Origin: Dillenia suffruticosa
Taxonomy: Eukaryota; Streptophyta; Magnoliopsida; Dilleniales; Dilleniaceae
DNA: 64,000 nt
Direction of reading: 5' to 3'
Assembly: GCA_033439265.1 (NCBI GenBank)
Contig: JAVTVX010000013.1
Location: forward strand, 7,404,501-7,468,500
The first letter of the stretch is position 1, and each line of letters starts with the position of its first letter. The translations under genes were made by a program, and so were the position numbers. The notes under the pieces are model-generated. The model saw only the letters and a list, made by a program, of their open reading frames with translations, did no database searches and had not been told where the DNA came from. Positions 9,318 to 62,540 of this stretch are shown piece after piece.

Positions 9318-11278
9318 AAATGCTGTTGGTGCGATGAACCTGACATCTCATGAAGCAGGTGTAGGAGGCTTAATTAGAGATGGAGAGGTTAAGAGATCAC
9401 TGGTTTCTATGTCAAAGTGGGCATATGCAATGTCCTGATGATTGAACTTTTGGGAGTTGATAATGTGCAAAAATGTTAATTTTATTATTGATGTTATGGT
9501 ATGATTTTGGATTAGTCATGTGATCTAATGGATGGTTTTATGATTTTTTATTTTTAAAAGATCAAAATTAGAGATTGGATCAAAGTGGATTTAATGAGGC
9601 AATTTTAGAGTTAAATGGCTCAAAATATCATTTGAGCCTATAAAGAAAGAAAGAGCATCTAGAGTGAAAGATTTAATTTTAGTAGAATTTTTATTTCAAG
9701 TAAATTGTTAAGGGGTTAATTGTTTCCTTATTTTAAAGGATTAACCTAATTCTTTAATAGGAGAATCTTTTTAGATCAAGATCTAGATCACAACAAGAGA
9801 AATCCCTAGTTCACTTTGGGAGTGTGGACTCACGACTATATATATATTTCTCTAATGTGAGTGGCAGCTAGGGTAGTACACACGAAGAACAATTCATTTC
9901 CTTTCTTAGGTTTTATTTTTCCTTTTTCTCTTTAAAGCATATTTGTTTTTTTATTGATTTAAGAACATGTTTGTCACAATGAGTGCTAATTTTTTTCTTC
10001 TGATTTAAGGAAAAATTTCATTTGATTATTTTTATTATGAGTTTATGTATTTCATTTAATTTCTTATCTTTTAATTCAACTATTTGTCGATTTTTGATTT
10101 ATTTACAAGAAAAATTTGTATTGGTTAATCTGATAATTTAATTCAATATTAATTTTTTTTATTACTATCTAGAATTTCTGTGATCCGTAATTGTCATAAA
10201 TGAATAGTACAAGTACCAACTAGATTATTTATGTTTATGAGTTTTTTTACCAATAGTCATGTTTAACTTAAAAAATTGATGGAACAAAATTAAATAATTG
10301 TGTGGCTATTCCAGTTAATGCTATCATTATATTAATATGGAACGTTATTGTATTCAGTCAATTAATGATAAATTTTGATTGGATGCTGAATTTAATCAAT
10401 TAATTTAAGAAAATACAAAATTTATTACGACTATTCTAATAAATTTAAGATTAAATACTTTAATTGTAAGAATAATATTTTTAACCCGTGATCAATGACA
10501 TAATCGAATGTGCGAACTCTTGAATCAGAATTTAGTATATTGAAATTCTTTTCTAATTTTTAGTATTTTTGCGTTATTTATTTGTTTTTTAATTTTTGAT
10601 TATTAATTTTTAATTTAAAAATATATTTTATAAACTCTCATTTTATTTTAGCAATAATTAAGAAATTAAGTTAATATAGTTTCCGTGTGATTCGATCTGG
10701 TACCGCTATTACTATAAATTTGTTTGTATTGACGAAATCAATATTAATTTGAGGGTTTCGTCAACCAGCCATGAGTTCATGAAGGCCTTATCCTTGCCAT
10801 GCCAGGAACAACAATCTAAAGAAGTTTGAAGTGGAATCAAATTCCATTATCTTGATCAAACTCTTCACAGAAGATCCTAAACAAGGCCACATGCTGTTAA
10901 ACATGATTATGGAATTTCGTCAAATCATGCTGGAGATGGAACTTCTAAAGGTGAAGCACATTTTCAGGGAAGCTAATCAATGTGCTGATCGTTTAGCTAA
11001 AATGGGCCTTTCAAGTTCTCAGAATTTAATTAGCCGGAGACTGCTCCTCATAAGCTCCTGCACTTGCATCATGAAGACAACAGGGGTACTCCCCATTTCA
11101 AATCTTAAGTTGGTGGATTTTGTAAATAAGTTATAATTCTATCGATACTGTTATTTTCTCTTTAGAGAATTCGAATTCGAATCTCCTCTGTGTACCAAAA
11201 CAATGTTGGTGGGCTTATTGGTTCTTTTGTTTATCCTCTTTGGCCGTTGGAGCCCTCCTCCTTGTAAATAAAAAAAAA
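9318..11278 (+). mobile_element. 5'-truncated LINE (RNase H end) with 14-bp target duplication, split by a later insertion
   Basis: The direct repeat ATGAAGGAAAAGCT occurs at 9304-9317 and 11279-11292, and the right copy directly follows an A-rich tail (11268-11278). This is the signature of target-primed retroposition. The inserted sequence encodes the C-terminal RNase H-like (RVT_3) domain of a plant LINE: GAMNL and GGLIRDGE near 9330-9390, then after the interruption FEVESNSIILI and HIFREANQCADRLAKMG near 10826-11005, the usual vEsDS and REaNxxADxLAk motifs. A one-base deletion near 10793 shifts the frame. The domain is split by 1.33 kb of unrelated sequence at 9435-10762. It is dead and truncated to about the last 630 bases of the parent element. 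Confidence 0.75.
9435..10762. mobile_element. 1.33-kb AT-rich insertion inside the LINE fragment
   Basis: Removing this segment joins the two halves of the RNase H-like domain in frame (AMS before, TSHEF after), which fixes the boundaries to within a few bases. It starts TGATGATTGAAC at 9436, contains a TATA-like CTATATATATATTTC at about 9837-9851, has no coding potential and ends in GGGTTTCGTCA. This fits a solo LTR or a non-autonomous element. The flanks share only GTC, so no convincing target duplication is seen and the class remains open. Confidence 0.5.
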
Positions 11279-11292
11279 ATGAAGGAAAAGCT

Positions 11293-12600
11293 GAGGCATG
11301 GGACAAGATTTGGGGATAGAGAGAGTGATGTGGTCTGCGAAAAAGTTATAACTAAATTTAATTGATATTAGATAAAATTTTTAATATAAAAAGTTATTGA
11401 CATAATAATAATATTAATCAATATTTTACTTTTATATAATACTTTTAATTAAAATCTAAGTTTTATTTATAAAACTCATTTGTGTTTTGATTGAAAAATA
11501 TTATGAGTAATATAAACAAAATAGAGACAAATTGAACTAAATTGAAATAAATCAAGATTTTTCAAATGATGCTTGAGAATACTAGCCCATTTGGTAAAAT
11601 TATTTTGAAAAGTTTATAAACTACTAAAACTCATATAATACTCTTAGAGATTGTAAGTTTCTATATCTTATGATCAAAATATCTTGTTAAAATATTTGTA
11701 TAAAATAAGATGAAATAATTTATAAATGTATCATGTGAGCTTATAAATTGTTGTTATGTTCAGTACTGATAGGCTTTAATAAATCATTTTTAGTATTGAA
11801 ATAACTAAGATGATAAAATATCGTCACTATTATCTAAATAGTTATTTATTAATATGCAAAAGAATAAATGTGAGATAATTAAATATTAATAAGGGGAATT
11901 TAGTTACTTTATAGTTTAAAATAAAATAATTTATAATCTGTATTAAAAAAATTCGGGTAAAACTACTTTATTTCTTTAAAGAAGGGATAAGAAATAAACA
12001 TCTTATTTTTACCCTAATAAGCTATTTTAGGAAAAAATTGCTAGGCAAATTTATTGAGTTAATAAGATTTCAAATATTTTATAAAATGCTTTGACAAGCT
12101 TAAGAGCTTAACGTTACAGATGTTTGGGTAAACTATTCTATGTTTTTTATATTAAATTTTATTTCAAATATATTTTATCTAAACTAAAAGTATTTTTATC
12201 AAAATGTAGAATTATTTGAGAAAAATAAACGTTTCATTAAAAATATAAAATAGTCGATACATGAATAAATTTAAGACTAGATATAAATTTAGTTTACTTT
12301 TAAATATGAGAAGAGATTGCATATAAAAACAATTTATGTAGTTATTCAATTTTATGAAAAATCAATTTTGTTTGTATCAATTTCGTTAGTTAATAATACG
12401 AGATAGATAAGATAAATAAAGTGAGTTATAAATTAAATGTGCCTAATTTTAAATGACAAACCATCTTAATATATTATTTTTTTTACTTAATTTAAAAGAT
12501 ATTTTAGTTAATTAAAAATTATTTAAATTTAATTTTTTAAATATAAATTAGTTGTTTAATTTATTTGATCCATATTATAACCATCCTACGATTGCCAGAC
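11293..12600. other. AT-rich intergenic spacer upstream of the SPOT1-like gene
   Basis: No gene is seen. The stretch is very AT-rich, with repeated short words of the type TTGGTAAAATTATTTT (about 11590) and TTGGGTAAACTATT (about 12124) that hint at an old MITE or duplicated piece, but no terminal inverted repeats could be established. Its right end should contain the promoter of the gene starting at 12740. Confidence 0.4.
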
Positions 12601-12739
12601 CAGGAGTGGGAGGTGAGCGCGTCTATTGTTCCCAATGATTCAATTAAAATATTGAGAGAGAGGGGGAGGGAGCTGGGGTGCGGTGTTTTAGGGCAGGAGT
12701 TGGCAGTGAAGACTCCGAAGACTGCAGTGCAGTGCGGTG
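12601..12739 (+). promoter_or_regulatory. Probable 5' UTR / promoter-proximal region of the SPOT1-like gene
   Basis: Composition changes abruptly from AT-rich to G-rich text (GAGAGAGAGGGGGAGGGAGC at about 12652-12671) just before the ATG at 12740, as is common for plant 5' UTRs. No clear TATA box was fixed. Confidence 0.4.
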
Positions 12740-12796
12740 ATGGATGGAAGTTGCAGATCTCTGTCTTTCTTAATCACAATTGTACTGCTGTTACTG
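12740..12796 (+). CDS. SPOT1: Exon 1 of the SPOT1-like gene: signal-peptide core
   Basis: This 57-base exon encodes 19 residues, [10 protein letters not shown] followed by LITIVLLLL, then a GTAAAATG donor. Joined in phase to the acceptor TTATCAG before 26248 it continues FIAARSHG, giving a textbook signal peptide (hydrophobic core, then small residues before a likely cleavage site), followed by the conserved SPYGTHKS start of the mature protein. I chose this ATG because it is the only upstream start seen that supplies a signal sequence in the right phase. The assignment is by inference from phase and hydrophobicity; the 13.45-kb intron makes transcript evidence desirable. Confidence 0.7.
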
Positions 12797-15700
12797 GTAA
12801 AATGCTTTCTATCATAAAGTTGCACGATTGTATATGTAATTTTGTTCCTTTTTATCATCTAGGGTCTGTTTATTTACATTTAGGTTACAGCAGCCATGAT
12901 TGCCATTTCTCATGAGAATAAAGCCTACCCTTGATGTTTACTGCGCCTTAATAGCAGGATGGGACGACAAAAGATGGTGGTGGTGGTGGTGGTGGTGGTG
13001 GTGGTTGTGGGAGGGGGGAGGAATTTGTTAATGAATATGGGATACTTCCAGTTTTTTATCGCAAATGTCCCTTGCAAGTTGAACCCTCTAGTCTTTAAAA
13101 AAAAAAAAATCAAATTGATAGATGTGCTTCTGATGTTCAGTGAATATTTGGATCATGAATTAACGAGAAAGGGCTGACCTATTTGTAACAAAGACATTCT
13201 GTTGCGTCTTGATTATGTGGGTTGATTTATAAAACATAATTATTCTTAAATATAACGGCAGAGAATAAAAGTGGGGTAACCTGTGGTTATAGGAATTGCT
13301 TTCAAGATTAAGGAGATCAGAAAAAATGAGTTATGGTTGCCAAATCAGTTGCGTATACAGTTGGGTGCAAGAAATTGATAGAAAGCAAGAAGGTAGCCAA
13401 TAAGAAGGGAAAAAAATATGAAGAGTTGAAGGCCATTTGAGTAGGAATTATACGAATCTCATTGATCACTCGTATGTTTTAACGCATCAAAGAGTCTTTT
13501 ACTGTCTAAATCATCTATAACTAATATTCAATTTATTAAGATCAACCCTAGAATTAAGAGTTTTCTGCCCACTACTATTTTAGAGAGCCCCTTGTGGAAC
13601 TTGTAGTTCTCAAAGAAAAAAAAAATTGTGGCAAGAGACTTTCTTATTTCTATGGTGCTGTTAGATTGATGATTCTCCAACTTGTAGGTGCTTATTGAGG
13701 CATGCAGCTTTGAATAGACAAGGAAATGAGGTGTTGGAATTTTTATATGAGTGGTGAATCCTACATCAGATAAATTGTGGATGAGTGAGTTTTGTATATG
13801 CAGAGTTGGCCCAGCCAATACCAGCTTAAGGTTTTGGCCAGAATGTTTGTGTTTAACTTTGTATGGGAAGTCAATGTAGCTCCTTTACTAGTATATATAT
13901 GTATGTTTGTATTTTCAATCAAATGTATCTGTTAGTTAACAAATGGAAATTGCTTGCATTTTTTTTATTATTTATTTGGTCAAATATGATGCTAGATTTC
14001 ATACAAATGGCACTAATATGACGAAAGATGAATTTTTTGCTTGCTTTATTTAATAATTCTTTCATCTGTGCCTAAGAAAGAAAATGAGGAAGACAAGAAG
14101 GATAGATGTATATATTTTAAACTCTCTCTCTCTCTCGCGGTACACATGGAGGAACAGCCTAGGATGTAGGAAACCCGAGCTGCCCAGCTTCCTTCCTCTC
14201 TATTATCCTCAACTTCACCTTCCTTGACCACCTCTCGAGACCCTCTCCCCTACTTCTCTAATCCCTGAAGCATCTCCACTTTGATGATGATGGAGCTGTT
14301 GTCAACGCCTCCACCAAGTATGAAGTATCTACCACTGTAGCTGGAGGATCTAGGCCTTCCTGCCCGACCTGATCTCAGCTAGGTTTGAAGCTTTGCTGAG
14401 CAGTTCTCAATTGGTGGTGCTGCTGCCATAAATGTCTATGGCACAGGCATCACTTTCCAAATAGTTTATTTAAAGCCGTTGGGTGAAGTTTTGGTCGCTA
14501 GGTTTGGGAACTATCAAGCAATTGCTCCAGGGAATTTCAATTTGTTGGGGGTCCTTACCAGGTTCTTTGCTTCATCTTCCAGTGTGAGCAACCATGATCC
14601 TCCTCAATCTCTAAGTGAGAGAGATGAGAGAAACATCATCATCCTTGATTCCTAGTGAGAGAGATGAGAGAAACATCCTTCTTTTATTTTATTCCTTCCA
14701 TTATTTTGATTTCTTTCTTCTTCTCCCTCTCTTTGTCATCTAAGCGCACAAAAGAAAATTATTATCATTTTTTGTTGGAGAAAGAAGCATAAAAGATAAT
14801 TTTTATTTTTATTTTTTTATTATACTAGTGCCAATGTCATAACACGTGTGGCCGAAATAATAATAAAAATGCCACGTAAGTAATTTCCATTTGTTAACTA
14901 ATATATAACTTAATTTTAAAAGTAAAGTTACTACATTAAAATAAAAGAAACCAATAGAGGTACTTAAATGAGAAAAAGAGCAATATACAAGTCCTTATGG
15001 TGTGATTGTGATTATTCCATAAGTATCTTGTGAGTGCAATTCCCAGTAAGCGGTACTAGCCACCCATTTAGCTCGGTATAACAGGAGTGGTCCAAGGAGA
15101 TGGAATTGTGCGCAATGCCATGGTTTTTGTCCCTTCCTTGGTCAATCAGTACTTTTGCCAATTTGCTATGGCTGAGTGGCTCAATGGTTAAATAGCTTAT
15201 CATGAACATTGGGACACGGATATTATTGGAAGTTATGTGCAGGTAATGAATCCCACGTCTAATAAACTGTGGGTGGGTGAATTGTTTATATGTTGACTTG
15301 GCTCAACACCTATCATTAGCAGCTTAAGTTTTTGCATCAAAATTTGTGCCTAACTTAGTGTGTATACACTCTATAATAACACCTCAAGTATCCCTCCAAT
15401 GTGCTTTCGACAAAAAGACAGTTTCTGGTTCCCTTGTCTTGTGTTCTGGATAAGGAGTAGGACCTTCAATGGAGAGGAAAATCACCAGATATTCTCATAA
15501 AATCAATTGGTTTAGGATCTTGAAACTTAACAAAGTTACACTATTATAGAAAGAAATTTTAGAAACTTCTGTTTTCATTTAATTTATTCATTTATTTTTG
15601 ATGCATGTAATGTTGAAATTTGAAAGAAAGATCACAAATTATAAGAAAAAAGACTGCAGAATTTATTGCATTTTGTGAACAAGACATTAGCTTTGTTTGA

Positions 15701-18700
15701 ACATTTGTTCATGAGTTTTAAAGGGAAGGATGAGAGGTATTTATAGGAGAAAAAGGGAGAATTTTGGGAGGACAAATGATGGCCCTCCAACAGCCAGAAT
15801 TCTGGCCGTTGGAGGGCCTCCAACAGCGAGCAGAACTAGCCGTTGGAATCCTTTCCAATGGCTAGTCTGCTGGCTGTTGGGGAAGGGCTTCAAGCCCTCC
15901 TTTCTTGGGCTGGAAGAGGGCCCTTCCTTGGGCCTGATGAGGCTTCTTCTTGGGCTGAATTGTTTTACCAAATATGCCTTGAGAGTGGGCTGAAGGTCTT
16001 GATTTGTTTGGAGAGGAATTGCAATACTCATCTTCAACTCTTCTTTCAATACTCCCCCTCAAGTTGGGTGTGTATATGTCTATGACACCCAACTTGCGTA
16101 CACACTTGAGAAGGTGACTAGCAGTTCCTGCCTTGGTAAAGATGTCCGCCACTTGATGATCACTTCTAGTAAAAAAGAGGGTAATGAGTTTATCTTCGAT
16201 CTTTTGTCTCACAAAGTGACAATCTATTTCGATTTACTTTGTTCTTTCATGAAATATCGGATTTGAAGCTATGTGAATTGCTAATTGATTGTCACAATAC
16301 AAATGAATTGGAGTTGGAACTGATAATCCAAGTTCCTCGATTAGAGCTCTTAGCCAAACTATCTCACTTGTTGCGGCTGCCATTGCTCTATATTCTGCTT
16401 TAGCACTTGATCTTGATACGGCATGTTGTTTTTTACTTTTCCATACTACCAAATTTCCTCCAACAAACATGCAATATCCAAGAGTTGATTGCTTATCTTC
16501 CGAATCTCTAGCCCAATATGCATCGCAATAACCCGTGATTTCTGAGCTGTTGTTCTTTTTCATCCAAATTCCCATGCCTAAAAACTGCTTTAAGTAGTGA
16601 AGAATTATTTCTGCGGCTCTCCAATGCTTCTTCTTGGGTCGGTGCATATGTTGGCCTACTTGACTCACAGCAAATGATATATCCGGTATAGTTATATTGA
16701 GATATATCAGCCTCCCAACGAGTCTTTGATATCTTTGCTCATCCTCATATTTTTCATCATCATCTTTGAGACCATAAGAGGAGTTTATGGGGCTGCATGT
16801 AGGTTTGGCACCTAATTTCCCGGTTTCCTTCAAAAGGTCAATCACATATTTTCTTTGTGATGGGACAAGCCCATTTGGACAATAGGCAAGTTCTATCCCT
16901 AAGAAGTACTTTAGTTTTCCTAAATCTTTGATATCAAACTTTGTTTGAAGAAATCCCCTTACTTGATTGATTAAGCCTAAATCATTTCGGTTATAATTAT
17001 GTCATCTACATAAACTAGGATATCAATAATATTTTCATTTTGTTTCTTAACAAAAAAAAAAAATGTATCACTATTGCATTTTTGGAAATTATTGTTAAGA
17101 AGAGTAGAGCTAAATTTGGCATACCATACTCTAGGATTGTCTTGACGAGATAAGCTCGGGGGAACTTTCATATACACCTCTTCTTCTAGGTTTCGTTGAA
17201 AAAAAGCATTTGCTACATCCATTTGAAACATGGGCCAAGAGTGATTGATGGCAAGGGGTATCAAGACACGAATTGTGTTCATCTTGGCTACCGGAGCATA
17301 TGTCTCCTTATAGTTTATTCCATAAGCTTGAGCGAAACCCTTTGCAACTAATCTTGTCTTGTACCTCTCTATGCTTCCATCACTCTTGTGCTTAATCTTG
17401 TAGACCCACTTGCATCCCACAACTCTTTTTCCCTTTGGAAGAGATGATATCTCCCATGTTCCATTCTTTATTAAGGCATCTATTTATTCTTTTATGGCTT
17501 AGACCCATTGAGGATGATGTTTGGTTTCTTCAAAGTTCCTTGGTTCTTGGTGTTGATCTAAGTTTCTTTTGAAGGCTTGGTGGCTCAAGGAAACATGTAA
17601 GGTTGTATGGTAGTCACAAATGGGATATCTTCGTCTCATCCACTCCGATGGAGGAAGTCTAAGTCTTGTTGATCTTTTAAGAGGAGGATCATTTTGTTCT
17701 TCTAAAACTTGCTCTTGTTCCAAATCAACTCCCCCTTCCTCTTGGTCCGTTTCATGATCAGAATGAGAAGAGGCCGATTCTTCTTCGGATGGATGGTCAT
17801 CTTCCCTTTGAATTGGTTCTTCTTCTTCATTTAGTTGTGGTGGATCCTTGATGGTAGGAAGTACTACATTCCAATGATCTTGGTCACCTTTCTCCCTTGA
17901 GTGCTCTTGGTTCTTCATTTATGCAAAATAAGGTTCATTTTTCACAAATATCACATCTTTAAATGTATATAGTTTGTTAGTTAAAGGATCATCTTTTCCA
18001 AAGGTGGAATAATATAAGCACACACATTTTTTTCATTTTTCATCTAGTTTGTTTCTAAAATATGCTAGTACATGTACATGGCAAGTGCATTAAAAAACTT
18101 TTAAATGAGAAATATTAGGTTTCTATTAAGAAGAAGCTCTAAGGGGGACTTTCCTCCTTGAACTTTCCTCCTAGGACGTTTGTGGGCATAAGGTTTATAA
18201 GGTGAGCTGCTATTTTTATGAGTTCACTCCAAAATTCTTTGGGAACATTGGCATAGAACATCATTGCTCTAGCTGTTTCCAAAAGATGCCTATTTTTTCA
18301 TTTGACAACTCTATTTTGTTGTGAAGTGTATACACATGACTTTTGATGAATAATCCCCTTTTCTTTCGGGAAATCCTCAAAGACATTACTAGTGTATTCA
18401 CCCCATGATCGGATCTAAGTATTTTGATATTGACATTGAATTGTTTAGTCACATATTTATAATAGCACTTAAGGGCTTCAAAAACTTCAGTCTTAGTGAC
18501 TAACAAATATACCCAAGTGTACCTTGTTTTATGATCAATGAATATCACAAAGTATTTAAAACCATTATAAGACACTATGGGTGAAGTCCAGACATCAGAA
18601 TGAATTAATTCAAATGCTAAATGGTGTTTGAAATCGGATAATACATTCTAGTTTGTTTTCCAAGAATACAAGCTTTGCATTGCCTATTTTCTATTTCTTT

Positions 18701-21700
18701 ATTTGGAAATAGGCGTTTCAAAGCTAGATCTTCGGGATGTCTTACGCGAGCATGCCATAAAAAAGATGCCTGATTTTGGACTTCAAAAGCTTGGTTTTCT
18801 TGTTCCAAGTAGTATAAGTTGTTCTTTTTAAACCCCTTTCCAATCAAGAGATTCGACTTGAGATCCTGAAATACAACTTGGTTAGGATCGAAAATGACTT
18901 TGCATCCTAGATCTTTAGTTAATTTGCTAATGGATAAAAGGTTGGATTTGAATTTTGGCACATATAGGGCTTTGGTTTTCTTGCCAAGAACTTCAACTTC
19001 AGCCATGTGATCAATTTCTAGTTTTTAACGATTAGCTACTTTGACAATCTTATGGTCAGATAGAGGAATAAATCTTTCAATTTTGTTTTTATCTTTGACC
19101 ATATGATTGTGACAACCGGAATCTATAAGCCAATTATTGAAATGAGATGAGTTTAGATTGTTACCCGAATGAAGAGCAACTGGACTGATGATCTTTTGTA
19201 TTTCCTTCCTCATTTCCTTTTGCATTTCTTCCATTTTGGTTTCAAGGGCAGCAACTTGAGAAACTTGTTAGGCATATGCTGGTTGTTCCATCTCCTTCTT
19301 AGTTGATTTGGGCCTCAGTTGAGGATGAAGAAACCAACACTTCTCTCTTTTGTGACCCGGCTTTTTACAATGGTGCACACTTCCCTTTTTGTGAAATTTT
19401 GAGCTTTGTTGGCTGCATGATCTTCTTGAGTTGTTTTGAAGGCCTGAGGTTCAGATTTGAGCTTGGATGATTCTTCAAGCGCCATACTAGTTTCAGCTTT
19501 TTGGATCATGAATTGAATTTCTTGGAATGAAGGAAAAAGCTTTATTCTAAGAATTTCTTGGCGGATTGTAGTATACTCATCTCCTAGACCCATGAGAAGA
19601 CCAAAGGTCATGTCTTCATCATTTCTTTGAAGTAGGGTCTTGAGATTTGTAGCAGAAGGCCTTAATAAATTGAGTTCATTCTATAGATCTCTATATTCTC
19701 CAAAGTATTCAGGTAGAATTTTACCTCCTTTTTGAATCTTGAAGATCTTCTTTTTTAACTCGAAGATCCGCCCGGTGTTGGTCTCTTGCCCATAAAGTGT
19801 ATGCATTTGATCCCACAAGGCCTTTGCATTAGGAATGCATATGACCATTGTTTTGTGGGTCTTGTCAAGAGATATTTGAAATAGCACCACCACTTGATCA
19901 TCACGTTTCTTCCATGCTTTGAATGAAGGATCAGCATCATCTAAGGGGTCCTCCAAAATATGATTTTTGTGGTTGAAGAAATTTAAGGACCTCTTGATGG
20001 TGTCTTGCCATGCATTGTAGTTTGTGACATCTAGAAGAATGGAAATGAATATGGAGGTTCTAATTTGTGGTGGAGGATCACCAAGACCGGAGGAAGAAGT
20101 ATAGAGGCCTGCTCTGATATCATGTTGAAATTTTGAAAGAAAGATCACAAATTATAAGAAAAAAGACTGCAGAATTTTATTGCATTTTGTGAACAAGACA
20201 CTAGCTTTGTTTGAACATTTGTTCATGAGTTACAAAGGGAAGGATGTGAGGTATTTATAGGAGAAAAAGGGAGAATTTTGGGAGGACAAATGATGTCCCT
20301 CCAACAGCTAGCAAAACTAGCCGTTGGAATCCTTTCCAACAGCTAGTCTGCTGGCTGTTGGGGAAGGGCTTCAAGCCCTCCCTTCTTGGGCTGGAAGAGG
20401 CCCCTTCCTTAATTCTCCTTGAGAGTGGGCTGAAGGTTGTTGAAATGAAGGAGAATTAACGATCCTCTTTGTAAGCCATCAAAGGGACAGATTTTTCCTA
20501 TTTTAAGTCCAGTCTGTCCAGCCCATTTAGGGACCCAAATTGGGCCCTAAATGGGCTCAGCCAGTGGGCATCCGCTGGGTCCTTTAGGACCAAGACTTTT
20601 TCATCTCAAAGGGGCCCATAAAGGGCCCCAACAGTCTTTCAAGGAGCTGTTGGGTCTGCCCCAATGGCTCGTAAAATATAGCTGTTGGGGACAGCCCCAA
20701 CGGCCAGAAAAGGAGAGGGTAGTGCCCTCTCCATTCTCTTTTTTCTCTTTAGCTCTCTCTCTCTTCTTTCTCTATAAATAGGGCTTTTAGTGGCTCTTTG
20801 AAGGCATGAAAAAATGCTCACAAGTTGTATGCAAATTCTCTCAAAATATCAATGATATTTTGAATTTTTATTCAAAGCATTTTGTACATTTCTTTTGCAC
20901 AATTCAACATGGTATTAGAGCAGGCAATGCTCCATCTTCGCAACACAAAAAATCACTCAAATTGGGTAGATATCATACAAAAATTGCTGAATTTATGCGA
21001 TGATTTAAGCCTCCTTTTGAAAGAGTTATTTGGAGCATTCAAATTCTTGGAGCTATAGAGGAAGTTGCATCAAAACACCTCAAATATAAAAGCGTTTCTA
21101 CATTACGAAGAAATAAAGGTCACCATTCAGCAAATAAAGGCATCCAAAATGCGTCAAAATAAAAACCAAATTCTGAATGGAGGGAAAGTCTTCGCTGCTA
21201 CAATGGAGCAGCAACAAAATGCATCCATTCCTCTCAAATCAGGCCACCAAGCTGCTGCACACTATGCAGATCCTTTATCATCAATAAGAGCCAAGTGTGA
21301 TGAGTTTCAAATCAAGTTAAATGAGTGCATAAAAGATCTACCACAGCCGGCCTAAAAAGAAAGACATCTCTCAAGTTCTATCCCTATTTAGCTCACAAGC
21401 AAAAGATCAAATTTCAGTCTCTATGATGGCCAAATGCACTGATCTCCAAGCAAAGGCAAATGAGCGCCTAAAGGGGCTTCATGAATCAGCTCAACAAAGA
21501 AGATCTTATGCTTCCGTGGTGACCGGAAGTGTTGCTCAATGTGCAGCTTTTCAAGATAAACCGTATATTCACTTGAAAAGTTTTCAACATTCAACGCACA
21601 TAGATAGTAACAATCAAAACCCTATCTCTTCTTTAAGCTCCTAAAAATTTCTTATAGGTTTCGGAATTGATCATCACATGATTAGGGATAGGAGAAAAAT

Positions 21701-24700
21701 CAAACGTTTTAAAAATCTCCCTAACCAAAGAGTAGTGTGTGTTGCTAATGGACAAAATCTAGAAGTAAAACAAATGGGAGAAGTTGAAATTTTTGGAAAA
21801 TCTACAAGTGCTTTATATGTTCCCCAACTTACTTCCGATCTTTTGTCTATTAGCAAGATTACAAAGGATCAAGGGTGTAGGACCACCTTTGATCTGGACA
21901 CAGTCACATTTCATGTTCTAAAGACAAATCAATTGATTGGCAGAGGAACTCAAAAGGGAGGCCTATATTACTTAGATCAAGAGCATTATGCACTCACTGC
22001 CCACATTAATGATGATGCTTCACTTTGGCATGCACGACTAGGACATCTAAACAATAAGGCATTGAAACTTCTTCCAAATTTGAGCATTGAAAACAAGCCT
22101 TGTGAAGCATGCATATTGGGGAAAGAAACAAGAACCACTTACCCTAGTTCGGAAAGCAAGTATATCTCTCCCTTTGAACTAGTACATTCGGACATTTGGA
22201 CTTTCCCTATCTTGTCACATCTAGGATACAAATACTTAATCATATTTATTGACCAGAAAACTAGGTACACATGGATATATGTTTTACATTCCAAGAATCA
22301 AGCTTTTGAGGCACTCAAAAGTTATTTCAAATATGCGACCAACTTATACAATGCCAAAATTAAGGTCCTTAGAACAGATCATGGTGGAGAATACACAAGC
22401 CACAAATTTGAAAACTTCTTAAGAAACAATGAGATCTTTCATCAAATGTCATGTGTTTACACACTCCAACAAAATGGGGTAGTCGAAAGGAAAAATAGAC
22501 ATATATTAGAAACCGCAAGAGCTATGATGATCCATGCCAATGTCCCAAAGAAATTTTGGTGTGATGCGGTTAAAATTGCAGTCCATGTAATGAACTTAAT
22601 GCTCACTGAAGTTTTAAAGGACTTATCACCATTAGAAGTCCTCTTAAGAAGAAAACAATGATCTCACATCTTAGAGTTTTTGGGTGTGTATGTTATATTC
22701 ACATTCCCTCACAATTTAGGGACAAATTAGATCATAGAGGTAGGAAATGCTTATTCCTAGGTTATGCATCATTTGATAGATGTTATGATCCTACAACTAA
22801 TAGAACATACACATCTAAGGATGTAATATTTGTAGAAAAAGAGTTTTTCTTTTCAGGAAAGGAGACACAAGAAGTACCCAAGGAAAATGCTCCAACAAAA
22901 ACTTGGGACTTCCTAGTTCTACCGTACCTACCGCCCTCTCAAATTGACGAAAGAAATGGTTCCCAAGATATGGCCCACTCTCAAAACAATGAAGAGGAAC
23001 CAGCATCTACCTCAAGGGGAGAACAACAAACAATGGAAGAAGAGACATCCGAGCAAGCTATGGAAGAATCGGATGCATCTCCGCCTCCTCTTCGAAGATC
23101 AACAAGGTTTAGACTTCCTCCATCGGAATGGATGAGTCAAAGATATCCAATTTGTGACATTATACCATCTCACATGTTTTCTTGAACCACCAAGCCTTCA
23201 TAAGAAACATAGATCAACATCAAGAGCCTAGAACCTTTGAAGAAGCCAAATATCATTCTCAATGGGTTCAAACCATGAAGGATGAGCTAGATGCCTTAGC
23301 TAAGAATGAGACATGAGAAATATCATTACTTCCAAAAGGAAAGAAAGCTGTGGGATGCAAATGAGTTTATAAGATCAAATATAAGAGTGATGGAAGCATT
23401 GATAAATACAAGGCAAGATTAGTGGCAAAGGGCTTCACTCAAGCAGATAGAGTAGATTACAAAGAGACATATGCACCGGTGGTCAAAATGAACACAATTC
23501 GGGTCTTATTATCTCTTGCAATTAACCACTCTTGGCCAATGTTTCAAATGGATGTAGCAAACGCGTTTCTCTAAGGGGACCTAGAAGAAGAAGTATATAT
23601 GAAAATTCCTCCTGGGTTTGCTCATCATAACAACAAAGTTTGCAAACTAAAGAAATCAATCTATGGTCTCAAACAATTTTTAAAAGCTTGGTACGCAAAA
23701 CTTTGAACTACTCTTCTCAATCATAATTTTAAGAAATGCAATAGTGATACATCTCTCTTTGTTAAACGGCAAGATGGAAAAATCATTATTGTGTTAGTTT
23801 ACGTAGATGATATAATCATAACCGGAAATGATTTAAATTTGATCAATCAAGTTAGAAAATTTCTCCAAACAAAATTTAACATTAAAGACTTAGAAAAACT
23901 AAAGTACTTCTTAGGGATAGAACTTATCTATTGTCCAAATGGGCTTGTTTTATCACAAAGAAAGTATGCTCTTGATCTTTTATAGGAAACAGGGAAGTTA
24001 GGTGCCAAGCCCGCATGTAGTCCCATCAACTCTTCCTACGGTCTCAAGGATCATGATGAAGAGTATGAAAATGAACAAAAATATCAAAGTTTTATAGGGA
24101 GATTGATCTATCTTACTATAACCAAGCCGGACATTTTATTCACCATGAGTCAAGTAAGCCAACACATGCATAAACAAAAAAGAAAGCATTGGAGAGCTAC
24201 ATAAAGGATTCTCCATTACCTAAAAGGCACTCCAGGCATGGGAATTTAGATGAAGGAAAACGGCAGCTCAGAAATTATAGGTTATTGTGATGCGGATCGG
24301 GCCAGAGACTCGGAAGATAGGCGATATACCTCAGGGTATTGCATGCTTGTTGGAGGAAATCTAGTGGCATGGAAGAGTAAAAAACAACATGTAGTATCAA
24401 GGTCAAGTGTAGAGGCAGAATATAGAGCTATGGTGGCGGCAACAAGCGAGATAGTTTGGTTAAAGGCTCTTATTGAAGAATTTGGATTCTCCGTCTCAAT
24501 CCCTATTCATCTTCATTGCAATAATTAATCGGCAATTCACATAGGTTCAATTCATGAAAGAATGAAGCACATCGAGATGGATTGTCACTTTGTGAGACAA
24601 AAGATTGAAGAAAAGCTCATCACTCGTAGCTTTACAAGGAGTGATCATCAAGTTGCTCATATTCTCACCAAGCCGGGAATCGCAAAACACATCCTCAAAA

Positions 24701-27700
24701 ATATGGACAAACTAGGTGTTATAGATATAAACACACCCAACTTGAGGGAGAGTGTTGAAATGACGGAGAATTAGGGATCTTCTTTGTAAGCCATCAAAGG
24801 GACAGAATTTTCCTATTTTAAGTACCGTCTGTCCAGCCCATTTAGGGACCTAAATTGGGCCCTAAATGGGCTCAGCCTGTGGGCATCTGCCGGGTCCTTT
24901 AGGACCCAGACTTTTTCATCTCAAAGGGGCCCATAAAGGGCCCCAACTGCTATTAAAATCTAGCCGCTGGGGACAGCCCCAACGGCCAGAAAAGGAGAGG
25001 GCAGTGCCCTCTCCATTCTCTTTTTCTCTTTAGCTCTCTCTCTCCTCTTTCTCTATAAATAGGGCTTCTAGTGGCTCTTTGAAGGCATGAAAAAATGCTC
25101 ACAAGTTGTATGCAAATTCTCTAAAAATATCCATGTATTCTGAATTTTTATTCAAAGTATTTTGTACATTTGTTTTGCACAATTCAACAAAGGTCTTGAT
25201 TTGTTTGGAGAGGAATTGTAATACTCATCTTCAACTCTTCTCTCAATATGTAACTTTTTTTTTTTTTTCCCAAAATCAAGTGCATGTGCTTCTATTCAAT
25301 TACATTTTTACGGGACTAATTTTTCTTTTACTGGGAGGGTGTTAAATCTTTTGCTCTTGAATCATTTAAGTCTCACTGGATGCTGAATTATTTTATTTTA
25401 TTTTATTTTATTTATTTATTATTATTATTTTCTTTCCACCTTTGTTTCCCTAAGACAAAGGAAGGGTCTGATGACGCCATATCTGTTTTCCAATTCTTGG
25501 ATTGAAGTAAAAATTAGGTCCAGATCTGAGAACGACCACCTTTGGTTGTCCCTGGAGATTTAAAAATTTATATATCCATTCTTTCATTTCTCCCATGGGA
25601 TGCTGTGCTTCAATTACCCCATGGAATAATATGTGAATAATAGACGAACTTTTCTATATTATACTCGGTTTTTGTTTTTGCATTTTTTTTCTTCTTTTAT
25701 TTTTTGTTTTTGTTGTTTTTGTTGTTTTTGAACCGTCAGGATTCAAGAGTTGAGGGCAATGTTTTCAGGTTTTTGTTGCATCTTCAATTTACATGTTTTC
25801 AGTTTTTGGTATGTATCCCTGAGCTATAAATTGCAACCAATGCTTGAATAGTTAACACATTGCCATAATCATGCGATTGCAATTGGTTAGGTGTGATATT
25901 CAAGTCTATTTATGTTTGCTTCGGTCTTTACTTTCCCTGTAATATTTATTTAACCTTGATTTACCATTTCATCATCATTATCAATACTCTTTCCAGAAAA
26001 GAGAAAACACCTAATTTTTCCTCATTTTTTGTCATTTCTGTTTATCACCTGTGGGTTTAGATTGTTTGACTGGAAGGAAATCCTGGTTGAAACACTAGAA
26101 AGTTACCAAAGAGTTTTATTTTCTATATTACTGTGGTACAATTATTTGAAATCTGGAGATATCCCAATCTCTTTGTGGCATGTTGCATGGATAAGCATTT
26201 GCTAGTGATCTAGGTTTCAACTGATTGGTGTTGGTGCTGTTTATCAGTTCATAGCAGCCAGGTCACATGGTTCTCCATATGGAACTCATAAAAGTGTGAA
26301 GGCTTCGGTTTTTTCTTTATTCAACCTCAAGGAGAGGAGTAGGTTTTGGAGTGAGTCTGTTCTCCGTGGTGGTATGTCTACTTTTTTCTGTTTGATAGTT
26401 ATTAGTATAGAAGTATGATTCAATTTCACTGCTGTAAAATATCCACTCATTTTTTTTACTTATTTATTCTTTTTTTTTTTTCAGAATTTGAAGAACTGGA
26501 ATCCTCTGTCCACGGGAAATCTAGTGTTCTCAATTTCACCAAGGCAGGTACTCAATGTGGATTCTGTATTTGAGATTATATTAAGCCTCAAGTTCATTAA
26601 GTTGAGAAAATGCATCGAATTTATGATGAAAGTGTTGGCTTGTCACTCAGAAAGTATGAAGTCACACTTCATACAAAAAAGTTCCGGCCAATGAATGCAC
26701 CTAGCTAAAGATCTTTCTGTGATCCTGCTTCAGGATCTGGTACTGGCATGGGAAGTGATTTGAAGTGACCCTTCAAATTTTGAACCACAGTGAATGTGGT
26801 CTTCTACTTACAGTGGATCTGCAGATGATAGTTTTCTGAGCTAATTTTTTGTTCTGTGTCCCTCATTGTTGGCATTAAATGTTTATTAGTTCGACTGCGG
26901 AGGGAAAGTGATGGAGATATGCTTTGTTGTTGTAGTCAGTACTAGGAGGGCAATCAAGTTTGGGACCCTTTTACCTGTAGATTATGGTGGACATATCTTG
27001 GAAATCTTCTAGATCTTTTCTCTGACATTGCTGTATCGAATATAGTCTTCATAATTCACATATCATGTTTACTGTATAAAGAGATTAATCTTTTCGCTGA
27101 TGCTGCTTTGTTAAATCCTTTGTGGTGAATCTTTGTGATGATAATATTGTTAGTAGTACTGCATGGGTTGATGGACTTTGAGGCTCCTTGTACTAGAATA
27201 TTTACTTGCCCCAACATAGGGGTTTTTCGTTTTCTGGGTTTGAAAAAGAATGTCTAAGATATCCTCACGGGACAAGAAAAAAAAGAAAGGGAAAACAAGG
27301 GGAGAGACCTGGAGTCAAGCAAAAAGAGCTGTCTAATTTGTATATACATCATAAATATAAGTACGACCTTGTTAAGGTTCTGCTGCAACAGTCGCTAAGG
27401 AGGCCAAGGACCACCTTATTCAAAAACAAATGCAGTGAAAGAAAAAGATTATCAATAATTCTTGACTTCCGCTCCAACCAATCCACAGGGATAAGATAAA
27501 GTGAGCAAATTGTAAAGAACGTCCAAAACCCATGAATTTGATAGCATACATCTCATTCAAGATAGTAAGGCAAACCCAATTTTCTCCCTACATATGTTAA
27601 AAATTTTATCCTAAAGAGCCCAAGCAAAATCTCGAAGTCTTATGGTCCCCTAACCTGCAGCACATCGTAGCTTGTGGCTTAATTTGCTTATTTGTTGTGG

Positions 27701-30700
27701 CATGTATAAAAATTTGGCAGTTCAAATCCTTCTCTAATTTGATTGTTAAATGCAGGTAACATAGCAAATTATCTGAATCTTTTGGAGGTTGATTCTATAT
27801 ACGTTCCAGTTCCTGTGAATTTCATCTTTATAGGGTTTGAAGGAAATGGAAACCAAGGTAACAGTTTTAGATTTTTTGAACTGTCTTGTTTGTTATAATT
27901 ATTCAATAAAAATTAGGTGGGAGGCTAATGTTTTGTTTTCATGTTTAGGATTTAAGCTCCATGCTGAAGAGCTTGAGCGCTGGTTCACAAAGATTGATCA
28001 CATCTTCGAGCATACACGTATTCCACATGTTGGAGAAGTTCTAACTCCATTTTACAAGCTTAGCATTGATAAAATACAGAGTCACCATCTACCTATCACT
28101 AGCCATATAAATTACAAGTAATGACTTTTAGTAATGTGCTTGTTTATTCTGGACTGTTTCTTGCTATATCTGTTAACAATGGTTGAAAAGTCTGTCCTTC
28201 AGACGGTACCATCATTATTGTGAATGTGCTTCTGCAGCTTCTCTGTTCATGCCATACAATTGGGTGAAAAGGTCACAAATGTTTTTGAGCATGCGATAAG
28301 CATTTTATCCCGCAAAGATGATGTATCAGGAAACAGGTAAATAATATGCATAATGTGCATATCTAACTGCATGAGATATTATATTCTTTTCTAAGATTGA
28401 CTTGCAAAATTGAAGGCAATAGAGATAAAATCTTTTAATTGTGGAAATTGGAACCTATTTATATGTAATGATAATGAGACAGGTTCCTATTGTGTGAGAG
28501 GTAACTGATTTTAGCATTAAATATGGTTTTTGTGTTTCAGGAGAATATGATCCATCTAAATGTATTTTTCTCTAATATAAGTAAAAATTTGAGTTAACGT
28601 GAAGTTTGTCTTTCGGTAAGTGACTTTGATTCTCTCTGCTATGAAAGTATTTCTAATATCTTACTTTGTCTAGGGACCAGAAGGATACGCTTTGGCAAGT
28701 GGATGTGGACTTAATGGATGTCATATTTACCAGTCTTGTCAAATACCTGCAACTTGAGAATGCATATAATATTTTTGTTTTGAACCCCAAGCATGATGAG
28801 CAACGAACTAAATATGGTTATCGGTAAGTATTTCACTATGAAATCTTTTTGTGCATTTTTTTTCTTTTCTGGTGGCCCTGTGGGGGGTGGTTGGGACAGG
28901 GCATAGTGGGGAGGCATGTATGTTTAAAACCAAGGAATTTATATGAAATCTACCATCATTCTCTTTGTGTGCTTCCTTCCCCCTTTTGGCATGGTTTTCA
29001 AGGGGGTTGTGAGTAGGCAGATTTGTGAAGCCCAGGGAGTCTTTTTACATGTTTGCTTGCCAGAGAAGCACTAGGATTAACACTTCACCATCCTTAGCTG
29101 GATTAACTTTTGAGACGAAACAAGTAATTGGCTAGCAGGTGTTGAACCTGTTTTCCTCATTAAAATGCTTGTTAAAAGTATGAAGCAAGCCAACCATTGC
29201 CTAATGATGTTATGTTCATCACTATTATTTAGAGTCATCTAGATGGTCAGTTTGCTGGATTATCATTATTATTTTTCATTTGAAACTTGATTTTGGTTTT
29301 CATGATGCTTAATCATGCACATATTCTACCATTGTGCGTTATAGAAAGTAGCTATTTAGAGACTTAATCTAGGCACACTCTGACACTCTAATGACAACTC
29401 ATGGCCACAACAAGGATTGGTTCAGTTTCTCATGGAAGGATGATGAACAAGATACTGAAAATTGATAGGCTGCAATGGAGCATAGGTTTAAAACTTGGTA
29501 GTCGTGGTAATGGTTTCAGATTACCATAATGGAAATTGCTTATTATGGATTGGTGGGCTTTCTCACTTGTGGAGGTGTCACAGCAGGGTTGTGATCATCG
29601 TGGGCCGCAAGGGGTTATCATTCGCAATCATTACAGTTGTCATGGGTTCAACAACTTTTACATCCTCCTTAATAGGCTGTGTCCATCATGGTAACTATTG
29701 ATATGGTTTCATTATGGCTGTTACAAACACTAGAAGTCCATCTTTGATTCCATGAAAGAAACGCGGCAAATGCGTTGGCATTGATGACTGAATGAGGTAG
29801 TAGAGAGTGTAGATTCACACCCTTCATGAATCATTTCCATTGTTATATCTTGAAGAACAAAAGAGTCAGGAAAGAATGAGATGGAGCACTTGAAGTGTGT
29901 GTTTGTCTTACTGAGTGACATAATATTAAACTGCAATAAAGAAATATAAGACACAGAAGTATGGAAAAGTGAGGGTTGAAAATCTATTTCCTCCACTAAT
30001 GGATATTGTCTGTATCAATTGGCTAAGATAACAATTGGAAGAGATAGAATGTTGAAGATTGGAGAAATAACTAGGTGTACCTGACATGGCACCTGAGTGC
30101 ACAGCAGAGCTAGATGGATGATGGGAGTGAAGACAAGTGCTGGAGTTTCCTATCTATGTGAGACATGTATATCACCGATGTCTTGATATCCTAGACCACC
30201 ATGTTTTCTATCTCCACCTGGTGTCCAAGTCATTAATGCCATTAGTTTATGTTCCAAACAAAAACCATATTTTTGGATCTGTATCCCACAGGAGTACGGA
30301 GAATACATGAGTAAGTCTCAACAAGAGATGGAATTTTTGGCTCCTTTTTATGATTTGATCAATGACTTGGGCAAATTCTGGACATAAGCTGGCTAAGTAT
30401 TCCGGGAGAGTCCATTGTCTCACTTCTTTGCATGGCAGTCTTGGTGCAAACTGGGATGACAATGGTCAACAGCTCAGCTACATTTTAACGGAGATTGCTC
30501 CTCAACTGATTTTTTTTTTTTTTTTTTTGAATGAACTATGAGAAGTATCTTACATTTTGTTTCTTTTTTGATAGGGAAAAAAAAAAGAATTCTGTTTGGT
30601 AGATTCGGAGAAACAGATTAGGACCGTTACATTGACTTAGAGGATAGAAAATCCTCGGAGGCAAGAATAACAAAGCCAAAAACAAAAACTTAAAAAGGAC

Positions 30701-33700: not shown

Positions 33701-35053
33701 TTTCTAGATTGACTATATTTCTTTCTAACGAATTGATGAATTATGTTAGGGCTAAATTCGTTTACTGGAGATAAACTTCCTGTTTGGCTATTGAATTATT
33801 CATTTTGTTTTATTTATTTATTGTGGAGCGAAAATATTTTCTGGTCATTGGAGAACCTAAACCAAAATTTCTGAAGTCATTTCCTAGACATTCACTATCG
33901 GCAGAAATAGACCTTGTGAAACAAGTTTTGATTAAGAGATATGATGACGTTTGTAGCCAAACAGTTGAAAATATCTATTAATAAAATCCTTATCGTGAAA
34001 AGATTTTCCTCAACCAATGAATTTTCTTTCACATTTTTGGAGGAGTTGATTAATTATCTTCTTTTGCATTGTGAATGGGCATAAGAAATTTGGGATTTGA
34101 GCTAGGTGGTGCAGTTGGGAATACGATTTTGGTTGGGTAAATTGTGATTTAGTTAGAGGGGATGGATGAGCTAGGTAGCAAGTAGAGAAGAAGGGGAACA
34201 GGGATCATAATGTAGAGAAGAATAAGGAGGTGAAACATTGGGGAAATTAGAGAAAAGTAGGTAACTACATAATTGAAAAATGGATGCAGAGACCAATTTT
34301 GCCAGATCTCAAAGTTGAGAGAGGACATCGTTGAAAATTAAAGTTTAGGTGTAATTTGACAACTACCCATAGTTTTGGCTGATTTTTTGCAAGTTTCCCC
34401 AAAAAATGTGCTTGATAATAAATCGGTTTCTAAGAGAAAAATGAGCAATAATCGTGTTGCAAATGCAATTTATTAAATTTTAATTTAATTAGAATTAAAT
34501 TAAAACTCATAACAAATTCGATATTTGTTAATAAAGTTTGAAATTTATGTTTGGTGAAATATTGGCTGATATTGATGAAATATCAATTCAGATATCTCCC
34601 AAGATCTTATTAAACTACTACACTTTTTTAACCCTATCTTGTGTTAAATTCTCATTCTGATTTTTTACACTTTCTTGTTAAATCTGTTTTTCTGTAATGT
34701 ATTTTGAATTTACAATGTTTACAGGTGGAATGGTACAATATGTGTATGGATGCACTAAACAATGTTGAGAAGATTTATCAAGGAAAGGACACCATTGATG
34801 TCATCTATAACAAAGTTACCAGGGTATATGGTCCTATTCTCATCCTATATGGCAGGTTTGAGCAAACAGGATCAAGGATGAGACTCTGGAAGTTTACTTA
34901 CTTATGTTGATCACTTGTGTTTCTGTTCTTTTATTAGTTATTGAAGGGGGAGAATGGGGATATGAAACTTTTACTGCAGAAGGAACTTAAATCAGGGGAC
35001 TTCAGTGGTCTCCATGAGGAATGTCTTACAGATACATGGATTGGGAAGGACAG

Positions 35054-62340: not shown

Positions 62341-62540
62341 TGCCGCTGCTGCTGCTCTCTCTCTCCTCTCCAAAACGGCGCTAAAGCCCTAGTCCTGGCC
62401 CGCCGCCTCTCTTCCGCATCCCCGAGACGAGTAATAACGGGCGGGCCGGACAAATGGAGTACAGAATTAGGCCTAGCGAAGCCCATACTCAAAAGAATCA
62501 GGCTGGGCCCATTACCAGAGCAAAGCCGGGTTTTTTAAAA
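62341..62540 (-). promoter_or_regulatory. 5' UTR / promoter of the ROS3-like gene with site II elements
   Basis: Upstream of the ATG (minus strand) the sequence is GC-rich and contains several TGGGCC/TGGGCT words (near 62415-62420 and 62475-62515, both strands), the 'site II' type elements typical of promoters of constitutively expressed plant genes in growing tissue. The role is inferred from motif content. Confidence 0.45.

Follow-up and report, generated by a model that had tools for sequence, protein, structure and literature searches.

A probable KNS3/SPOT1/IEF orthologue with a split signal peptide and a first intron enlarged by nested copia retrotransposons

The gene described here is homologous, and probably orthologous, to Arabidopsis KNS3/SPOT1/IEF (At5g58100). 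Intron 1 splits the core of the signal peptide, has been enlarged by two nested copia elements and would be transcribed and spliced through; we give this reading a probability of about 0.85. The analysis covered a window of 64,000 nucleotides, and all positions are window coordinates. Gene family, exon phase, order of nesting and orientation of the elements can be read directly from the DNA. At the very point where a mistake would delete the secretion signal, this apparently intact gene tolerates nested retrotransposons totalling 9.6 kb. It also carries a warning for annotation, as the true start codon is probably 13.5 kb away, upstream of exon 2, where it might be overlooked. The gene model, on the + strand, comprises:

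12600-12739, +, probable 5′ UTR (G+C-rich leader)
12740-12796, +, exon 1, coding, 19 codons, phase 0 out (donor score, start context, hydrophobic core)
12797-26247, +, intron 1, 13,451 bp, GT...AG, phase 0 (splice sites, exon phase)
26248-26371, +, exon 2 (phase-0 join to exon 1, exon chaining)
26485-26547, 27756-27857, 27949-28117, 28238-28336, 28674-28823, +, exons 3-7 (exon chaining)
32064-32103, 32300-32357, 32455-32537, 34725-34823, 34947-35053, +, exons 8-12 (exon chaining)
35154-35272, 37190-37260, 40135-40240, 42617-42756, 43009-43167, +, exons 13-17 (exon chaining)
43249-43352, 43545-43720, 44439-44628, 45264-45363, +, exons 18-21 (exon chaining)
47582-47750, +, exon 22 (reading-frame listing, placed by phase and likeness to relatives)
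48002-48084, +, exon 23 (protein continuity)
48192-48268, 50135-50306, +, exons 24-25, stop included (exon chaining)

Arabidopsis KNS3/SPOT1/IEF is an ER/Golgi membrane protein; formation of the pollen wall (exine) depends on it, as does the exit of a boric acid channel from the ER. In a Pfam profile search, the product of the window gene matched DUF7906 (PF25483; E 3.8e-20, 73.1 bits, cut-off 27), a domain which we take to be linked to KNS3. Since the relatives KNSTH1/2, 26-28% identical to KNS3, may also carry DUF7906, this match shows the family and not orthology. Published Arabidopsis KNS3 mutations affect E490 in exon 15 and Q735 in exon 20. E483 and Q728 of the 25-exon model, matched by position and letter alone, each fall 7 residues short of these landmarks. 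They form the single pair with a common offset among E 459, 464 and 483 (exon 15 or its end) and Q 705, 717 and 728 (exon 20). The codon of E483 is split between exons 15 and 16, with its first base in exon 15, and Q728 lies in exon 20; the exon numbers equal the Arabidopsis 15 and 20 only if one exon precedes 26248. The C-terminal residue (938 versus 945 in Arabidopsis) has the same 7-residue offset, but this is contingent on the chosen exons 22 and 23. The protein tail, PRRAKPKIN, agrees with the Arabidopsis PRAPKPKIN in 7 of 9 places, and the sequence suggests a C-terminal membrane span with a short K-P-K-I-N tail.

Translation of the model yields 938 amino acids with the final stop as the only one, so that all 25 exons are open, as had been predicted. 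All 24 donors are GT and all 24 acceptors AG, including that of exon 23 at 48002. The exon-chaining script depends on an intron penalty chosen by the analyst: counted from exon 2, the chain had 23 exons at -12, whereas -10 returned 39 and -14 returned 20, and the exon count, hence the exon numbering, is contingent on this choice. The value of -12 was preferred because its additional exons resembled one protein; the Arabidopsis exon numbers were already known at that point, and the comparison was made only afterwards. Low penalties of -4, -6 and -8 produced 205, 140 and 95 exons, taking in retroelement pieces, and were dropped. Exon 22 was missed at -12 and found in the reading-frame listing; its placement drew on phase and on likeness to relatives. 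A start of exon 23 at 48005 yields a stop and a non-AG acceptor and was replaced by 48002. The splice sites at the exon 22/23 junction are weak, scoring 2.5 and -0.1; with an acceptor at 48034, three alternatives that keep the frame score better and yield proteins of 914-922 amino acids.

At the 5′ end, the original prediction had a 19-codon exon, carrying the start of a signal peptide, in exact phase with exon 2 across an intron of 13.45 kb. The exact coordinates bear this out: the donor at 12797 and the acceptor ending at 26247 join the two exons in phase 0, and together they complete one signal-peptide-like hydrophobic core (mean Kyte-Doolittle 3.53 over 11 residues). Most of the secretion signal is encoded by exon 1 and the rest of the core by exon 2, which would also offer A-x-S or S-x-G cleavage positions. 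The next in-frame methionine after exon 1 is residue 219, so a signal peptide has to be supplied by an exon further upstream. The ATG of exon 1 lies in the context GTGATGG, with a purine at -3 and G at +4, and its donor scores 5.1 (rank 58 of 3191 GT sites). The acceptor of exon 2 scores only a moderate 3.5 (rank 347 of 3571); 10 nt downstream, at 26258, lies a better-scoring AG (4.3) whose phase does not fit exon 1. The codon score of exon 1 is slightly negative (-2.6). G+C content reaches 0.53 in bin 12600 and 0.46 in bin 12700, versus 0.16-0.23 in the six 100-nt bins of 12000-12599; bins 12900 and 13000 (GGT repeat) are also G+C-high, at 0.48 and 0.42. The probable 5′ UTR contains one upstream ATG, at 12635.

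Candidate first exons were defined as phase-0 ATG...GT pairs with a donor score of at least 5 and an 11-residue core of mean Kyte-Doolittle at least 3.4, thresholds set after exon 1 had been seen. On the + strand of 1-26182, 8 of 466 phase-0 pairs have such a donor, and exon 1 alone of these passes the core threshold. None of the 47 decoy strong donors passes it (0/25 on the minus strand, 0/22 in 26372-64000), and of 60 Markov-simulated sequences, each 14.2 kb long, one gave a qualifying first exon. Another signal peptide could be supplied from a promoter and first exon closer to exon 2, within 25.25-26.2 kb, 12740 then being abandoned or part of a different transcript. A candidate at 25380-25465 (donor 3.3) is in frame to acceptors at 26214 or 26262. 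Among the 18 phase-compatible combinations with a start in 25249-26200, only these two reach a core hydrophobicity of 2.4. However, its codon score is very poor (-10.3 versus -2.6), it was not found paired with the acceptor of the 26248 exon, and the exon at 12740 surpasses it in donor strength and comes with a good start context and the G+C-rich leader. We regard such a substitute first exon as very improbable and retain exon 1 at 12740.

Most of intron 1 consists of the nested copia unit at 15611-25248, and about 3.8 kb would be left without it. The intron contains:

13912-14921, no strand assigned, possible non-autonomous TIR element, arms 13912-13955 and 14878-14921 (imperfect inverted arms)
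15611-25248, -, E1, Ty1/copia-type, 4,881 bp without insert (LTRs, 5-bp duplication, domains)
15611-16051, -, E1 3′ LTR (LTR pairing; minus-strand TATA-like motif at 15738)
20123-20437, -, inner piece of the E1 5′ LTR (LTR pairing)
20438-25189, +, E2, Ty1/copia-type, 4,752 bp, within the E1 5′ LTR (LTRs, duplication, domains)
20438-20909, +, E2 5′ LTR (LTR pairing; sense TATA-like motif at 20773)
24753-25189, +, E2 3′ LTR, candidate internal promoter or poly(A) region (LTR pairing; sense TATA-like motif at 25054)
25190-25248, -, outer piece of the E1 5′ LTR, severed by E2, starting with the second AAGGT copy (LTR pairing)

E1 is bounded by the target-site duplication TGTAA (15606-15610 and 25249-25253) and E2 by the 5-bp duplication AAGGT on both sides; these duplications and the LTR pairing establish the nesting of E2 in E1. 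The two nested copias of 9.6 kb that had been proposed are thus confirmed at 9,638 bp, with both duplications and both LTRs of each element, one of them split. In the profile search, E1 gave RVT_2, gag_pre-integrase and a sub-threshold gag match, and E2 gave integrase core, gag_pre-integrase, Pol_BBD and SH3-like domains; the integrase-side domains were found in E2 and RVT_2 in E1. DNA of E2 matches the RVT_2 region of E1 at 78-82%. Sequences seen by eye in both elements are taken by us to be an initiator-tRNA-Met-like primer site and a polypurine tract. The predicted TIR element is recovered in part: inverted arms are present, but they are imperfect (44 nt, 80% identity), no clear target-site duplication was seen by eye around 13912-14921, and its class is uncertain.

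LTR divergence (K2P) is 0.065 for E2 and 0.060 for E1, a small gap between point estimates. E2 must be younger than E1, yet its LTR divergence is not smaller. LTR ages calculated from such values are not taken as dates. The divergence also bears on a reading in which the gene no longer makes a full transcript and the block parts exon 1 from a decaying remainder. The weak sites at exons 22/23 would suit such decay. Nevertheless, the open 25-exon frame persists despite LTR pairs about 6% different, E483 and Q728 hold one offset to Arabidopsis, and an unused gene of such age would be expected to show stops or frameshifts. We find decay extremely unlikely.

The E2 3′ LTR might act as a promoter in the sense direction, from which KNS3 transcripts would start without exon 1, as E2 lies in the gene sense and the motif at 25054 is about 1.2 kb before exon 2. 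An RNA started there without a new first coding exon cannot make a secreted protein, the next in-frame methionine being residue 219, and E2, with its diverged LTRs, is not recent. This promoter activity seems improbable to us; it could coexist with transcription from upstream of exon 1, as noise or regulation.

Pol II transcription through the nested block is suggested by the open 25-exon frame together with the agreement with Arabidopsis exon numbers. As E1 is antisense and only E2 lies in the gene sense, poly(A) sites of LTR origin in the sense direction would be confined to 20438-20909 and 24753-25189, and would not be expected in the E1 LTRs (15611-16051, 20123-20437, 25190-25248). The premature ends in copia LTRs that had been suggested would accordingly be expected in E2 but not in E1. 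Sense AATAAA sites in intron 1 lie at 12917, 13264, 14862, 14940, 15261, 19067, 19664, 21112, 21133 and 21158.

It is plausible that the gene is a client of IBM2/ASI1-EDM2; such dependence is a reasonable generic inference from published work, and nothing in the DNA singles out the KNS3 gene. As raw counts, which bear at most indirectly on heterochromatic (CHG/H3K9me2) marking of the elements, C/T transitions pooled over both LTR pairs affect 3/20 CG, 6/96 CHG and 17/551 CHH sites. CAG/CTG observed/expected ratios are 0.41 and 0.42 in the internal parts of E1 and E2, versus 1.10 in other introns. We considered this depletion as a scar of CHG methylation and set it aside, as it is absent from the LTRs (1.15, 1.10) and inherited codon bias is possible. 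That KNS3 is a true client, in which the joining of the signal-peptide exon to the lumenal domain hinges on silencing of the sense copia within the antisense one, appears doubtful. If it were true, loss of silencing would give RNAs that stop inside the intron and contain exon 1 only, as well as RNAs started in the LTR that could not encode a secreted product, and TE silencing in the anther would be tied to exine formation and boron-channel traffic.

In the favoured history, an ancestral intron 1 of about 3.8 kb or less would already have split the signal-peptide core in phase 0. E1 then inserted antisense into this intron, and later E2, in sense, into the E1 5′ LTR, so that the intron now measures 13.45 kb. 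The promoter would lie directly upstream of 12740; Pol II would cross the block, and the intron would be removed whole or stepwise. Silencing of the elements may mask the sense LTR signals of E2, as in TE-bearing introns of Arabidopsis and rice. If expressed, the gene would be a convenient reporter for splicing and read-through of TE-filled first introns in plants.

Arabidopsis KNS3/SPOT1/IEF resembles the window gene in the exon numbers at the two mutations, the tail, the hydrophobic N-terminus and the C-terminal membrane span. The window gene is set apart by its length of about 37.6 kb and its 13.45-kb retrotransposon-filled intron 1, in a comparison that covered published Arabidopsis exon numbers and residues. 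IBM2/EDM2 and intronic TEs have been studied in Arabidopsis (PMC4417168, PMC10241880), and OsIBM2 is the rice counterpart (PMC7145194). Arabidopsis RPP7, AT3G05410 and AT1G11270 (COPIA78/ONSEN), whose heterochromatic intronic TEs have been examined in ibm2 and further mutants, are transcribed genes that also contain long retrotransposons of about 5 kb, some of them full-length (PMC4417168). Heterochromatic introns of rice are long, TE-bearing and biased to gene 5′ ends, and the window intron shares length, TE content and 5′ position with them and with OsIBM2-affected genes (PMC7145194). The window gene differs from the three Arabidopsis genes in its two nested elements of opposite orientation. 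The label 'giant' given to the intron should be weighed against other plants: grapevine is reported to have 2,697 introns between 3 and 100 kb long, versus 20 in Arabidopsis (PMC3058033). Enlargement there was driven by LTR retrotransposons, and in 39 compared genes more than 40% of large introns were intron 1 or 2, called predominantly 5′ (PMC3058033); window intron 1 is alike in both respects. The favoured model fits this literature, in which rice heterochromatic introns and large grapevine introns lean to gene 5′ ends. A TE-enlarged intron of this sort is already well known in plants, and the gene described here is a further case.

We read the plus-strand multi-exon gene whose 3′ end lies at 50306, located from reading frames and an exon-chaining script, as a homologue of Arabidopsis KNS3/SPOT1/IEF in which exon 1 is spliced to exon 2 across a copia-enlarged first intron (probability about 0.85). 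The number of exons depends on the intron penalty: values of −10, −12 and −14 gave 39, 23 and 20 exons, respectively, counted from exon 2. The model used here takes a penalty of −12, with exon 22 added later. With exons 22 and 23 placed at 47582-47750 and 48002-48084, respectively, it comprises 25 exons encoding 938 residues, and all 25 are open as originally predicted, since no internal stop occurs. The exon 22/23 junction (donor score 2.5, acceptor score −0.1) was set by protein continuity and by likeness to relatives; higher-scoring alternatives lead to 914-922 residues.

The encoded protein has a match to Pfam DUF7906 (E 3.8e-20). Excerpts of the Arabidopsis study describe KNS3 (At5g58100) as a protein with a signal peptide at the N-terminus, a membrane span at the C-terminus and a cytosolic tail of nine residues (PRAPKPKIN, ending at N945), and report the mutations E490K in exon 15 and Q735 to stop in exon 20 (PMC11629988). 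In the window gene the tail reads PRRAKPKIN, and E483 (its codon is shared by exons 15 and 16) and the exon 20 residue Q728 each fall 7 residues short of the published positions. Among the glutamate candidates 459, 464 and 483 and the glutamine candidates 705, 717 and 728, this is the sole pair with a common offset, a pairing by position and letter from published Arabidopsis residue numbers and not by protein alignment. Agreement in the exon numbers 15 and 20 requires one exon upstream of 26248. The protein end of the 938-residue model also fits the 7-residue offset; this agreement is not independent, because of the way the exon 22/23 junction was set and because better-scoring alternatives exist. 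For this reason, and because the exon count is penalty-dependent, our confidence was lowered from 0.87 to 0.85.

The 19-codon putative signal-peptide exon (12740-12796) can be spliced in phase to exon 2, which starts at 26248; this bears out the original prediction. Its donor is strong (score 5.1, rank 58 of 3191 GT sites), its start context is favourable (GTGATGG), G+C content rises from 0.16-0.23 to 0.46-0.53 in its leader, and it has a codon score just below zero (−2.6). Together with exon 2, it yields a single uninterrupted hydrophobic core. We surveyed phase-compatible first exons with starts at 9.0-26.2 kb, a donor score >1 and an acceptor score >0; 13 of 337 distinct candidates reached a core hydrophobicity of at least 2.4. 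Four of the 13 are more hydrophobic than exon 1; these are stretches of valine encoded by a GGT repeat (12959-13077), and their donors are weak (1.1-1.4). Another, at 25380-25465, is the only one past the copia block and could act as a nearer first exon replacing that at 12740, but its codon score is very poor; we consider such a replacement quite improbable, if slightly less so than before the above reassessment. Under a stricter test (donor at least 5, core at least 3.4, both cut-offs picked once exon 1 had been seen), 12740 was the sole match among 8 strong-donor in-phase candidates in 1-26182, with no match among 25 on the minus strand or 22 in 26372-64000, and a match in 1 of 60 Markov-simulated sequences. 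As the next in-frame methionine after exon 1 is residue 219, a translation start in exon 2 cannot give the whole lumenal domain.

Intron 1 (12797-26247, 13,451 bp) harbors two Ty1/copia-type elements, E1 and E2.

Features of the nested copia block
15611-25248: nested copia block, E1 interrupted by E2
Within 15611-25248, minus: E1, duplication TGTAA at both ends
15611-16051, minus: E1 3′ LTR
20123-20437 and 25190-25248, minus: E1 5′ LTR, two pieces parted by E2
20438-25189, plus: E2, duplication AAGGT
20438-20909 and 24753-25189, plus: E2 LTRs

Both elements contain copia-type domains spread across several frames. The LTR divergences (E1 0.060, E2 0.065) are too similar to reveal the insertion order; the nesting makes E2 the younger. 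Without the nested unit and one TGTAA copy, the intron would measure 3,808 bp. Both E1 LTR copies start with TATTG on the minus strand (at 16051 and 25248), in place of the TGTTG present in E2. CAG/CTG is strongly depleted inside the elements (0.41 of expectation in 16052-20122, 0.42 in 20910-24752; GAC/GTC control 0.74 and 0.63), without depletion in the E1 and E2 LTRs (1.15 and 1.10). The elements share pol at 78-82% identity in opposite orientation (16044-17687 and 23084-24760), so a read-through pre-mRNA would carry an imperfect inverted repeat of ~1.6 kb.

Of the elements expected to make up most of the intron, the copia pair is borne out, and the TIR element is possible but unproven. The stretch 13912-14921, upstream of the copia block, has imperfect inverted arms and is possibly a TIR element. 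It is flanked, still ahead of the copia block, by two intron stretches, 13733-13880 and 15237-15360, which look alike by eye. Upstream of exon 1, an RNase H-like fragment (10783-11133, plus; RVT_3, 8.1e-10) is probably a retroelement remnant.

Ordinary intron growth through insertion is the likeliest history, with splicing preserved since the splice sites lie outside E1 and E2. When the two LTRs of each element are compared and the counts of E1 and E2 added up, C/T differences affect 3 of 20 CG, 6 of 96 CHG and 17 of 551 CHH sites; these small counts point in the direction expected of past methylation. In rice, according to excerpts, loss of OsIBM2 leads to premature polyadenylation within heterochromatic introns (PMC7145194), and by analogy only with published work the window gene may depend on IBM2/ASI1-EDM2. 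Truncated transcripts had been predicted to end in the copia LTRs. Because E1 is antisense to the gene, only the two E2 LTRs would be expected to supply LTR poly(A) sites in sense, and the prediction narrows to these; sense AATAAA motifs also occur elsewhere in intron 1. The E2 3′ LTR holds a TATA-like motif in sense (25054) and is possibly an internal promoter, whose RNA would be without exon 1.

Downstream of the gene, open frames span 59418-62388 (minus); the frame at 61927-62388 contains an RRM domain (RRM_1, 4.5e-05). The start of this frame resembles ROS3 (At5g58130), a demethylation-pathway gene; judging from a search listing, three papers mention both names. If ROS3-like, it would amount to microsynteny with At5g58100 and place a demethylation-pathway gene near a TE-bearing gene. 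An open start, MEGGAIRSSMEKEGSTSYTYWVREVKSEEAAPQPVPRKLT, lies at 51322-51552 (plus); it resembles an AHA1-type co-chaperone N-terminus (At5g58110-like), and Pfam on this stretch alone gave no match.

None of the listed literature titles on the KNS3 names (15 of 22) or on At5g58100 and exine (3) is on this intron, in searches not aimed specifically at it. Seven other introns of the gene measure 1.8-3.3 kb; together with the large 5′ introns of grapevine and rice, they make this a kind of intron already known. The grapevine excerpts give 2,697 introns of 3-100 kb in 2,563 genes; for the 39 genes with a one-to-one comparison, they call the large introns predominantly 5′, >40% being intron 1 or 2 (PMC3058033). 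Rice heterochromatic introns are described as long and 5′-biased within genes (PMC7145194, excerpts). As far as these excerpts go, intron 1 resembles the grapevine large introns in being big and at the 5′ end of its gene, and the rice heterochromatic introns in being long and 5′-located.
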